Assembly: GCF_011516645.4 (NCBI RefSeq)
Contig: NZ_CP088285.1
Coordinates: 9,380,501-9,444,500 of the forward strand
Source: Bradyrhizobium septentrionale
GTDB lineage: Bacteria; Pseudomonadota; Alphaproteobacteria; Rhizobiales; Xanthobacteraceae
Length of the DNA stretch: 64,000 bases
Direction of reading: 5' to 3'
Shown here: positions 54,461 to 58,816 of the stretch, piece after piece
Position numbering within the stretch: the first letter of the stretch is position 1
Layout: every line of letters begins with the position of its first letter
Translations under genes and position numbers: made by a program
Notes under the pieces: generated by a model
What the model saw: only the letters and a program-made list of their open reading frames with translations
What the model was told of the DNA's origin: nothing
Database searches by the model: none

Positions 54461-55853
54461 ATGCGCCGCCTGCTCCTGATCCCCGCCTTCCTTGCCGCCC
54501 TGCTCTGGTCGGCGCCCTGCCTCGCCCAGGCGCGGTCGCAACTCGGCCCGCTCTGTACGACCGACACGACGCCGGCCGACCAGATGATCGACGCCTGCAC
54601 CAAGATCATCGCGCTGAAGGTGTTTTCCGGCGAGAAGCTCGCGACCATCTATTTCTGGCGCGCGGTCGGCTGGAACAAGAAGGGCAACTACGCGCAGGTG
54701 ATCGCTGACGCCACCGAGGCGCTGCGCCTCAAGCCGAGCACCGCCGTCTACAATCTGCGCGGCTCGGCCTATTACGACAAGGGCGAGTACGACATCGCGG
54801 TCGCCGACTTCAACGACGCGCTGCGCATGGGGCCGCCGAGCGGCATCATCTTTCACAACCGCGGCAACGCCTATCGCGGCAAGGGCGACTACGCCAAGGC
54901 GATCGCCGACTATGACGCCGCGATCAAGGCCGGTCCGAAGTCGGCCTTCTCCTACCAGAACCGCGGCTCCTCGAAGCAGGCGCTCGGCGATCTCGACGGC
55001 GCGCTCGCCGACATCAACGAGGCCGTCAGGCTCGATCCGTCGCTGCCGCAGCCCTTGATCAGCCGCGCCGTGATCTGGCGCGCCAAGGGCGACATCGCGC
55101 GCGCGATTGCGGACACCTCAGAAGCGATCCGGCTCGCGAAGGCGAAGGCGCCCGTCAACATCATGACGCCGCCGGGCAGCGTCTTGATCTCGGCGTATAC
55201 CCAGCGCGGCCTCAGCTATGAAGCGAAGGGTGATGCCGCGCACGCCAAGGAAGACTACGCCTCGGTGCTCGAGGGCGTGGCGTCCGATGCCGGCAGCAAG
55301 GCCAACCAGGCCACCGCCAAGGTGCGGCTCGCGCTGCTCAAGGAGGCCGATGCAGCACCGCGCAACGATGCAGCCCCCCGCAAGGCACCGGCGGCACCTG
55401 CCGCCGAGAGCAGCCCGACCGCGCCACCGGCAGGCTCCGTCACCGCACCGGCGCCGCCCGCCGCGCCGTCACAGGCCGCAGCAACCAGCCGGCGCGTCGC
55501 GCTGGTGATCGGCAACGGCGCTTATGGACATGTGAAGGCGCTGCCCAATCCGCCGAACGATGCGCGCGCCATCGCCAGGAGCCTGCGCGAGATCGGCTTC
55601 ACCGTCTCCGAGGGCCTCGATCTCGATCGCGACGCGATGCAGAAGACGATCCACGACTTCCTGCGCGAGGCGGCACGGTCGCAGATCGCCGTGGTCTACT
55701 ACGCCGGTCATGGCGTGCAGGTCGATGGCCGCAACTATCTCGTGCCCGTCGATATCGAGTTCAAGGCGGGCGGCCGCATGACCGACGCGATGGTCGACAT
55801 GGACACCATCATGGCCGGTCTCGACGATCAGATCCGCACCAACATCCTGATCC
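54461..55853 (+). pseudogene. 5' part of a TPR/caspase-like (peptidase C14) gene split by IS66
   Basis: Residues 1-464 of what was a 581-aa exported protein. A signal peptide (MRRLLLIPAFLAALLWSAPC) is followed by about six TPR-type repeats (such as IIFHNRGNAYRGKGDYAKAI), a Pro/Ala-rich linker, and a caspase-like domain from ALVIGNGAYGHV. The catalytic His417 (YYAGHGV) is present. The frame is broken after TSD base 55853, where the insertion element begins; continued reading into the element stops at 55909 after 18 foreign codons. The gene resumes at 58464 with the catalytic Cys. Caspase-like C14 proteases with TPRs are common in Bradyrhizobium. Confidence 0.9.
55846..55853. repeat. Target-site duplication of IS66 element, left copy (CCTGATCC)
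   Basis: 8-bp direct repeat CCTGATCC, identical to 58456-58463. Eight bases is the usual IS66 duplication size. Confidence 0.9.
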
Positions 55854-55931
55854 GTATCCCTCCATTGAGGGCCGCCTTGTTTGACGGACGCGAGCGCTGC
55901 AGGTCCTAGGGGTAATCCTAGGAGAAGCGCT

Positions 55932-56333
55932 ATGACGATTTCGCGGGCAGAGGTGATCACATCGGTCGAGCGGCGGCGTCGGTGGTCACAGGATGAGAAG
56001 GAACGGCTAGTTGCAGCATCGTTCGAGCCCGGAGCCACTGTTTCCGAGGTGGCTCGCATGGCCGGCCTTCATGTGAGCCAGCTGTTCAGGTGGCGCAAAG
56101 AGCTTTGCAAGCACGGTGAAACGAGTGTAGCGCCGTTGGTGCCGGTCGAGATTGGGCCGTCTGTGCCGCCGCGGGATGTGGCCGAAGCGCCATTGACGAC
56201 GGCGCCGGCGCGTCGACGGAGGAGCCAGGGCATCATCGAGATTGATCTCGGTAGCGGACACCGCATCCGGGTCGACGGTGACGTTGATGGAGACGCGCTG
56301 CGGCGAGTTCTCGATGCCCTGGTGCGCCGATGA
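55932..56333 (+). CDS. tnpA: IS66 TnpA-like accessory protein (helix-turn-helix)
   Basis: 133 aa. The N-terminal ITSVERRRRWSQDEKERLVA followed by PGATVSEVARMAGLHVSQLF is the helix-turn-helix region of IS66 orf1 (IS3/IS911 Orf_A-like). A GGAG site lies a few bases before the ATG. The stop overlaps the tnpB start by 4 bp (ATGA), giving coupled translation. TnpA helps transposition; it is not the DDE enzyme. Confidence 0.9.
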   Translation: MTISRAEVITSVERRRRWSQDEKERLVAASFEPGATVSEVARMAGLHVSQLFRWRKELCKHGETSVAPLVPVEIGPSVPPRDVAEAPLTTAPARRRRSQGIIEIDLGSGHRIRVDGDVDGDALRRVLDALVRR

Positions 56334-56677
56334 TCCCGGTTCCGACAGGCGCGCGAGTGTGGCTCGCGACAGGCTACACGGATATGCGCAGAGGCTTTCC
56401 GTCGTTGGCACTCCAAGTGCAGGAGGTGTTGCGCAAAGACCCGCTCAGCGGTCATCTGTTCGTCTTCCGCGGTCGCCGCAGCGATCTTGTGAAGATGATC
56501 TGGCACGATGGCCAGGGAGCATGCTTGTTTACCAAAAGACTCGAGAGAGGAAGGTTCATCTGGCCATCGGTTGCCGGTGAATCGGTAACGATCTCTCCGG
56601 CGCAATTGAGCTATCTGTTGTCCGGGATCGATTGGCGCAACCCTCAAGAAACCCAGCGTCCGACGCGGGTCGGTTAG
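56330..56677 (+). CDS. tnpB: IS66 TnpB accessory protein
   Basis: 115 aa matching the compact TnpB (orf2) of IS66: VWLATGYTDMRRGFPSLALQ, LFVFRGRRSDLVKMIWHDGQ and the tail ISPAQLSYLLSGIDWR. TnpB is needed with TnpA for full transposition in IS66 members. Its start overlaps the tnpA stop; the transposase gene begins 47 bp after its stop. Confidence 0.92.
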   Translation: MIPVPTGARVWLATGYTDMRRGFPSLALQVQEVLRKDPLSGHLFVFRGRRSDLVKMIWHDGQGACLFTKRLERGRFIWPSVAGESVTISPAQLSYLLSGIDWRNPQETQRPTRVG

Positions 56678-58377: not shown

Positions 58378-58455
58378 CCTTCACGCAAACGCCATCATAG
58401 AGCTCGCCGTACCCGCGCGCATGCGTCCATCACGCGGTCCTCGTCGTATGCGTAC

Positions 58456-58463
58456 CCTGATCC
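58456..58463. repeat. Target-site duplication of IS66 element, right copy (CCTGATCC)
   Basis: Identical to 55846-55853. The host gene continues directly behind it. Confidence 0.9.
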
Positions 58464-58816
58464 TCGATGCCTGCCGCAACAATCCGATGGCGCCACAGGT
58501 GGCATCCGCAGGTCCGAGCCGCGGCATCGAGGCCGGCTCCGGCCTCGCCGCCCCCGCCTCGCTCGGATCGGGCTCGACGCTCGGCGCCGGCACACTGATC
58601 GCGTTTGCGACCGCGCCGGGCCAGGTTGCGCTCGACGGCGAAGGCGCCAACAGCCCGTTCTCAGCGGCACTGTCGCGCCATGTCGGCACGCCCGGCCTCG
58701 AGGTGCAGCAGATGCTGACCCGTGTCCGTGCCGAGGTCGTCGCCGCGACCAAGGGCAAGCAGGTGCCGTGGTCGAACTCCTCGCTGCTCGGCGAGGTCTA
58801 TCTGGCGGAGAAGTGA
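58464..58816 (+). pseudogene. 3' part of the TPR/caspase-like gene
   Basis: Carries the catalytic-cysteine segment LDACRNNP (Cys is residue 468 of the rebuilt protein) and the rest of the C14 domain up to the normal stop at 58816. Joined to 54461-55853 it gives 1746 nt, exactly 582 codons including stop. On its own it lacks a natural start. An ATG inside the element's right end at 58448 is in frame and could initiate a 122-residue fragment lacking the catalytic His, which would not be a working protease. Confidence 0.9.

Follow-up and report, generated by a model that had tools for sequence, protein, structure and literature searches.

An apparently recent IS66-family insertion divides a TPR-caspase-like gene of Bradyrhizobium septentrionale

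Bradyrhizobium is a soil and root-nodule type bacterium. We analyzed a 64-kb stretch of DNA (the window), which is part of contig C2 of a 10.41-Mb B. septentrionale genome in four contigs. Sequence inspection of the window revealed a caspase-family gene cut by a 2,602-bp IS66-family element (Table 1). From left to right, the locus carries ahcY, metK, a conserved gene without an assigned family, the gene for the caspase-like protein, a metE-like gene, and genes for ABC-transporter ATPases. No Pfam or NCBIfam match was obtained for the unknown-family left neighbor at an E-value of 0.001. This gene adjoins metK in the regions of the genus survey described below and is present in all 59 genomes of the tree. 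In seven genomes (G012, G015, G035, G041, G045, G051, and G053) metK at the locus is about 58–64% identical, the others being about 89–99% identical, and the left-neighbor gene beside the divergent metK is 86–89% identical. Judged by these identities, metK in the seven genomes looks to have been replaced by a distant version. A 1,505-codon open frame (49962–54479, + strand) runs antisense to ahcY, metK, and the neighbor gene; it is most likely a by-product of the codon bias of high-GC DNA. No RNA family was matched within the 64-kb window at gathering thresholds.

Table 1 Features at the interrupted locus, numbered from the first letter of the window.
Feature	Position	Strand	Remarks
Left neighbor, conserved, unknown family, 451 aa	52932..54287	-	Methyltransferase-like by eye only
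Left gene fragment	54461..55853	+	TPR, Ala/Pro linker, first C14 half, predicted catalytic His (codon 417)
Present-day left open frame	54461..55909	+	482 aa: 464 native codons followed by 18 from the element
Target-site duplication CCTGATCC, left copy	55846-55853	+	8 bp, directly left of element
Complete IS66-family element	55854..58455	+	2,602 bp; at least nine full-length copies in genome
tnpA, accessory protein	55932..56333	+	HTH_Tnp_1; IS66_ISRel24_TnpA; Pfam, NCBIfam; open to stop
tnpB, IS66 Orf2	56330..56677	+	PF05717; Pfam, NCBIfam; open to stop
tnpC, DDE transposase of IS66	56725..58377	+	PF03050; GTG start; Pfam, NCBIfam; open to stop
Right open frame, 131 aa	58421..58816	+	ATG inside element right end, in frame through right fragment
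Target-site duplication CCTGATCC, right copy	58456-58463	+	8 bp, directly right of element
Right gene fragment	58464..58816	+	Second C14 half, predicted catalytic Cys (codon 468), native stop
Right neighbor, MetE-like methionine synthase	58835..59959	-	PF01717; PRK06520

Before the element, the native frame comprises 464 codons and one base from the start at 54461, and it resumes beyond the element to the stop at 58816. The 8-bp sequence CCTGATCC was confirmed on both sides of the element. Joining the two flanks by script, with a single copy of this sequence retained, gave 1,746 nt with a single terminal stop (581 residues and the stop), and the rebuilt protein carried YYAGHG at 413 (His417) and DACR at 466 (Cys468). 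The first-pass annotation had proposed that removal of the element with one copy of the duplication restores an exact frame; the scripted join bore this out, and its figures (2,602 bp, 1,746 nt, 582 codons including the stop, His417, and Cys468) are all correct.

Pfam analysis detected TPR and profile positions 1–106 of the 233 positions of C14 (PF00656) in the left piece, and positions 125–233 of the same profile in the right piece. PF00656 scored above the cut-off on both pieces; the profile spans the whole region, p20 and p10 being treated together here. The predicted active-site pair is thus divided, with His on the left fragment and Cys on the right. Both motifs were found in all 36 full-length intact loci (short rows L049–L052 set aside) and were invariant in the 32 of these that made up the alignment, which comprised matches starting at codon 1 (L013, L028, L033, and L054 do not). 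By eye, the N-terminus of the left fragment carries a putative Sec signal sequence, and the intact orthologs likewise show an apparent one. The C14 part of an ortholog matched the MALT1 paracaspase with an E-value of 2.5e-11, with YYAGHG and LD.CR aligned. An AlphaFold2 model of an intact ortholog was good for the TPR part and poor for the caspase half (block means 26–44 for residues 401–510), and modeling of the C14 part on its own gave a mean pLDDT of 51.8. A fold search with this low-confidence C14 model ranked MALT1 and caspases first. Hence, the C14 assignment rests mainly on the sequence match, and the intact gene product is a putative protease. A search of the same genome for a close backup copy found none: it has ten further C14 matches free of stops, none of them a close copy, and the most similar C14 region outside the locus shows 46% identity over about 100 residues. 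The PADLOC 'caspase' model matched the left piece weakly (28.1 bits, E-value 2.9e-7) and matched neither the right piece nor the left neighbor. A reading as an anti-phage defense system was weighed and set aside; the near neighbors include ahcY, metK, and the metE-like gene.

The nearest homologs at the locus occur in Bradyrhizobium, including B. embrapense, B. viridifuturi, B. pachyrhizi, and B. altum, which we take to belong to the B. elkanii lineage. Such a placement agrees with the relatives listed in the available portion of PMC8374602. The two halves lie exactly one codon apart at 41 of 46 public-genome loci and at all 29 survey loci, two sets that share some genomes; the public-genome count excludes 12 of the 58 loci found, which are distant (best segment 42% identity or less). 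The five exceptions are contig ends (L038, L044, and L048), an internal deletion (L052), and a truncated gene (L062). In two of the 41 loci (L043 and L046) the frame shifts within the Ala/Pro linker, either genuinely or through an error in sequencing GC-rich DNA. These frameshifts and several contig ends (L038, L044, and L049–L051) cluster in the GC-rich linker, reflecting either real instability or sequencing difficulty. Uninterrupted homologs, which the first-pass annotation had named as the confirmation of the event, thus exist at the same locus and bear out the rebuilt gene. The element had no match in L009–L066 and none in the 89 survey loci, so that no relative with the same insertion was found among them. 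All 33 database proteins matching the interrupted frame cover only the native part of the query (57%), and none matches the element-derived tail. A database protein of 581 aa (P0010, listed without a source) is identical to the right half over 116 of 116 residues and agrees with the left half at 456 of 464, with one residue between the two.

The distribution of the gene was surveyed in 60 Bradyrhizobium genomes, this one included. At an E-value cut-off of 1e-60 the left piece found a match in 41 genomes and none in 19. The 41 comprise 36 with a whole gene, three with a damaged or truncated one (G018, without about the first 175 codons; G025, with stops; G027, with a decayed left part), one with only distant relatives (G006), and the present genome. 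Tandem double TPR-caspase copies were seen at the locus in G007 (L176) and G047 (L187). The left neighbor was located in all 59 genomes other than G006, and the right neighbor lay inside the fetched stretch in 53 of them; of the six genomes where it did not, three (G029, G033, and G038) reach a contig end there. The gap between the neighbors could be searched at an E-value of 1e-4 in 18 genomes, namely G027 and the 17 of the 19 no-match genomes other than G032 and G038, whose right neighbor is outside the stretch. Remnants of the caspase gene were found in ten gaps (G009, G013, G021, G026, G027, G037 with a weak match, G040, G051, G053, and G056) and none at this threshold in eight (G015, G020, G028, G039, G041, G045, G048, and G057). 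The remnant content differs among most gaps; the breakpoints of G040 and G056 are nearly the same, and a single event may underlie both.

In a phylogeny of 59 genomes (G006 left out), built from ahcY and the left-neighbor gene, the distinction between whole and not whole required 14 changes, or 13 without the present genome, and well-supported branches alone forced 11 changes for the 'whole' label. This label was clustered on the tree (11 of 500 shuffles gave a count as low), indicating that some losses are shared by descent. Change counts alone cannot separate gain from loss; loss is shown by the remnants. Intact copies are under purifying selection. The present insertion thus adds to the losses of a gene that, though conserved where present, is readily dispensed with. 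We also considered that an exported TPR-caspase might be conditionally harmful, for example as an envelope protease triggered by stress or phage, or as a burden inside plants, so that its loss would be favored in some lineages. This would account for both the strong purifying selection where the gene is kept and the many independent inactivations at one conserved locus, of which the present insertion would be the newest; we regard such favored loss as unlikely. The preferred reading, an ordinary insertion into an intact gene, takes the loss as tolerated, because the genus has lost the gene many times by unrelated lesions.

The element itself is complete. NCBIfam models were covered at 1–113 of 113 (IS66 TnpA), 1–90 of 90 (TnpB), and 3–387 of 387 positions (transposase), all above cut-off. 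TnpC matched PF03050 with an E-value of 5.3e-79 and transpos_IS66 with 428.6 bits (cut-off 180), and the accessory genes upstream of tnpC matched NF047595 with 107.3 bits (cut-off 74) and NF033819 with 115.8 bits (cut-off 50). In the identical element on a B. septentrionale plasmid, the annotation gives tnpC the same extent. The earlier observation that all three transposase genes look intact is consequently upheld. The terminal inverted repeats are weak, with GTA...TAC ends and 15 matches in the first 25 bases. An 8-bp target-site duplication is a trait of the IS66 family.

The genome holds nine or more full-length copies of the element, of which eight are identical and one carries a single mismatch; copy numbers are lower bounds, since 40 of 251 first-look candidates were scored. 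Perfect 8-bp direct repeats flank all nine near-identical copies, with nine different repeat sequences, which excludes a chance origin of the duplication. The genome further contains at least four full-length relatives of the element, with 88% identity, and many partial relatives. A further copy, outside the window (G000:C2:7731575-7736779), has in turn been interrupted by another IS66-type element; its pieces overlap by 8 bases (query 1018–1025), as an 8-bp duplication would give. Among the other identical copies, the one at L070 sits inside a different IS66 transposase gene, the one at L073 at the end of a frame for a class III aminotransferase, and the one at L074 inside a frame resembling a hexapeptide transferase. 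On the B. septentrionale plasmid pBs162S2b, a copy without mismatch over 2,602 bases is flanked by an 8-bp duplication of its own, and four B. elkanii plasmids carry copies at 97.7%. A 690-bp stretch adjoining the pBs162S2b copy matched the present genome only in part. Recent multiplication of the element in this genome is therefore well supported by the near-identical copies with their duplications and by the plasmid copy.

Nine near-identical copies are also a setting in which assemblies can err, and the insertion is common to no other sequence examined; hence, it might be an artefact of culture or assembly confined to the sequenced clone. However, the perfect 8-bp duplication at the caspase gene differs from those of the other eight copies, and a misjoin would not create one. 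An artefact is accordingly improbable. The assembly is compatible with an insertion fixed in the strain and with one born in culture, and either may apply.

A genuine insertion may still be old. The codons of the split gene were compared with 17 rows from relatives, two of which (L015 and L113) are one genome. Only five private changes were found, all synonymous (three in the left half and two in the right), and none altered an amino acid. The dN/dS ratio of the split gene against each relative was 0.09–0.22 for the left half and 0.01–0.08 for the right, and the medians among the other relatives were 0.11 and 0.06, respectively. Because the private changes are few, this test of decay has low power. 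If the element had arrived long ago, in a gene already dispensable or non-functional, relaxed constraint would be plausible in principle, given that the gene is missing or broken in many relatives. Against this stand the absence of private amino-acid changes in either half, dN/dS ratios like those of intact relatives, the near-identity of the element copies genome-wide, and the existence of a close full-length 581-aa protein, and we consider an old insertion very unlikely. The event looks recent, as the first-pass annotation had held probable; the near-identical element copies and the lack of private amino-acid changes both support this.

It is extremely unlikely that the split gene still works, through fragments that are made and reassemble or through an element-driven C-terminal piece with a role of its own: both halves are undecayed, and an in-frame ATG within the element end makes a right-hand piece possible, but His and Cys are on different fragments, only the left one has an export signal (by eye), the ATGs borne by the element in the right frame (58421 and 58448) have no obvious ribosome-binding site (by eye), and the element-derived tail is absent from all 33 matched proteins.

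Taken together, it is very likely that a recently multiplied IS66 element entered codon 465 of an intact TPR-caspase gene that has no close copy in the genome, duplicating 8 bp. Since the duplication is 8 bp long, the transposase would have inserted the element through an 8-bp staggered cut, and translation of the interrupted frame would now stop after 482 residues. The two pieces are predicted to be non-functional, since neither of them holds both His and Cys. The fragments would also be in different compartments, as the export signal recognized by eye on the left piece is absent from the right-hand 131-aa frame. Hence, no active enzyme is expected from the split gene. The first-pass annotation called the event a clean natural knockout of a putative protease; the split and its recency stand, the null effect is deduced from the divided His and Cys, and protease activity is predicted from sequence alone.

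The event is a real, recent, and ordinary IS-driven gene loss. Its importance is toned down by the fact that the gene is not kept genus-wide and has been lost or broken many times; of modest further interest is that a caspase homolog under selection, and probably exported, has been lost repeatedly. The strain offers a mildly useful natural loss mutant of a bacterial caspase homolog. The genus presents intact, freshly broken, and long-lost states of one locus, so that the role of the apparently exported TPR-caspase can be approached by simple strain comparison. Searches of the available literature found nothing joining orthocaspases with Bradyrhizobium, nothing on caspase-like genes and insertion sequences in this genus, and nothing on IS66 target-site duplication in it.

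The present element shares the tnpA-tnpB-tnpC order and the 8-bp duplication with IS66-family ISs (IS66_ISRel24_TnpA, IS66_TnpB, and transpos_IS66); its terminal repeats are weak, and from the identical pBs162S2b copy it differs in insertion site alone. The accessible text of PMC8374602 gives 384–622 predicted ISs and 434–1,327 pseudogenes for the four genomes of B. septentrionale, B. quebecense, and strain NK6, and its authors note an apparent relation between the two numbers; within the symbiosis gene region, the same text places ISs in intergenic spaces. The IS-driven loss described here fits the same pattern of IS-rich Bradyrhizobium, for one gene and one site and with an argument for its age. 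Prokaryotic metacaspases have TPR partner domains and are abundant in rhizobia, as stated in the available part of PMC3501461, and orthocaspases are defined by the lack of a p10 domain in the portion of PMC6426788 at hand. The caspase-like protein resembles bacterial orthocaspases or prokaryotic metacaspases (C14) with TPR in the conserved His-Cys pair of its C14 domain, but its intact orthologs have an apparent signal sequence (by eye), and in the present strain the C14 domain is cut between His and Cys. In the TPR-bearing pseudo-forms of Rhizobiales, as given in the same portion of PMC6426788, Phe-Ser replaces His-Cys, whereas the TPR-caspase family at this locus keeps His-Cys.
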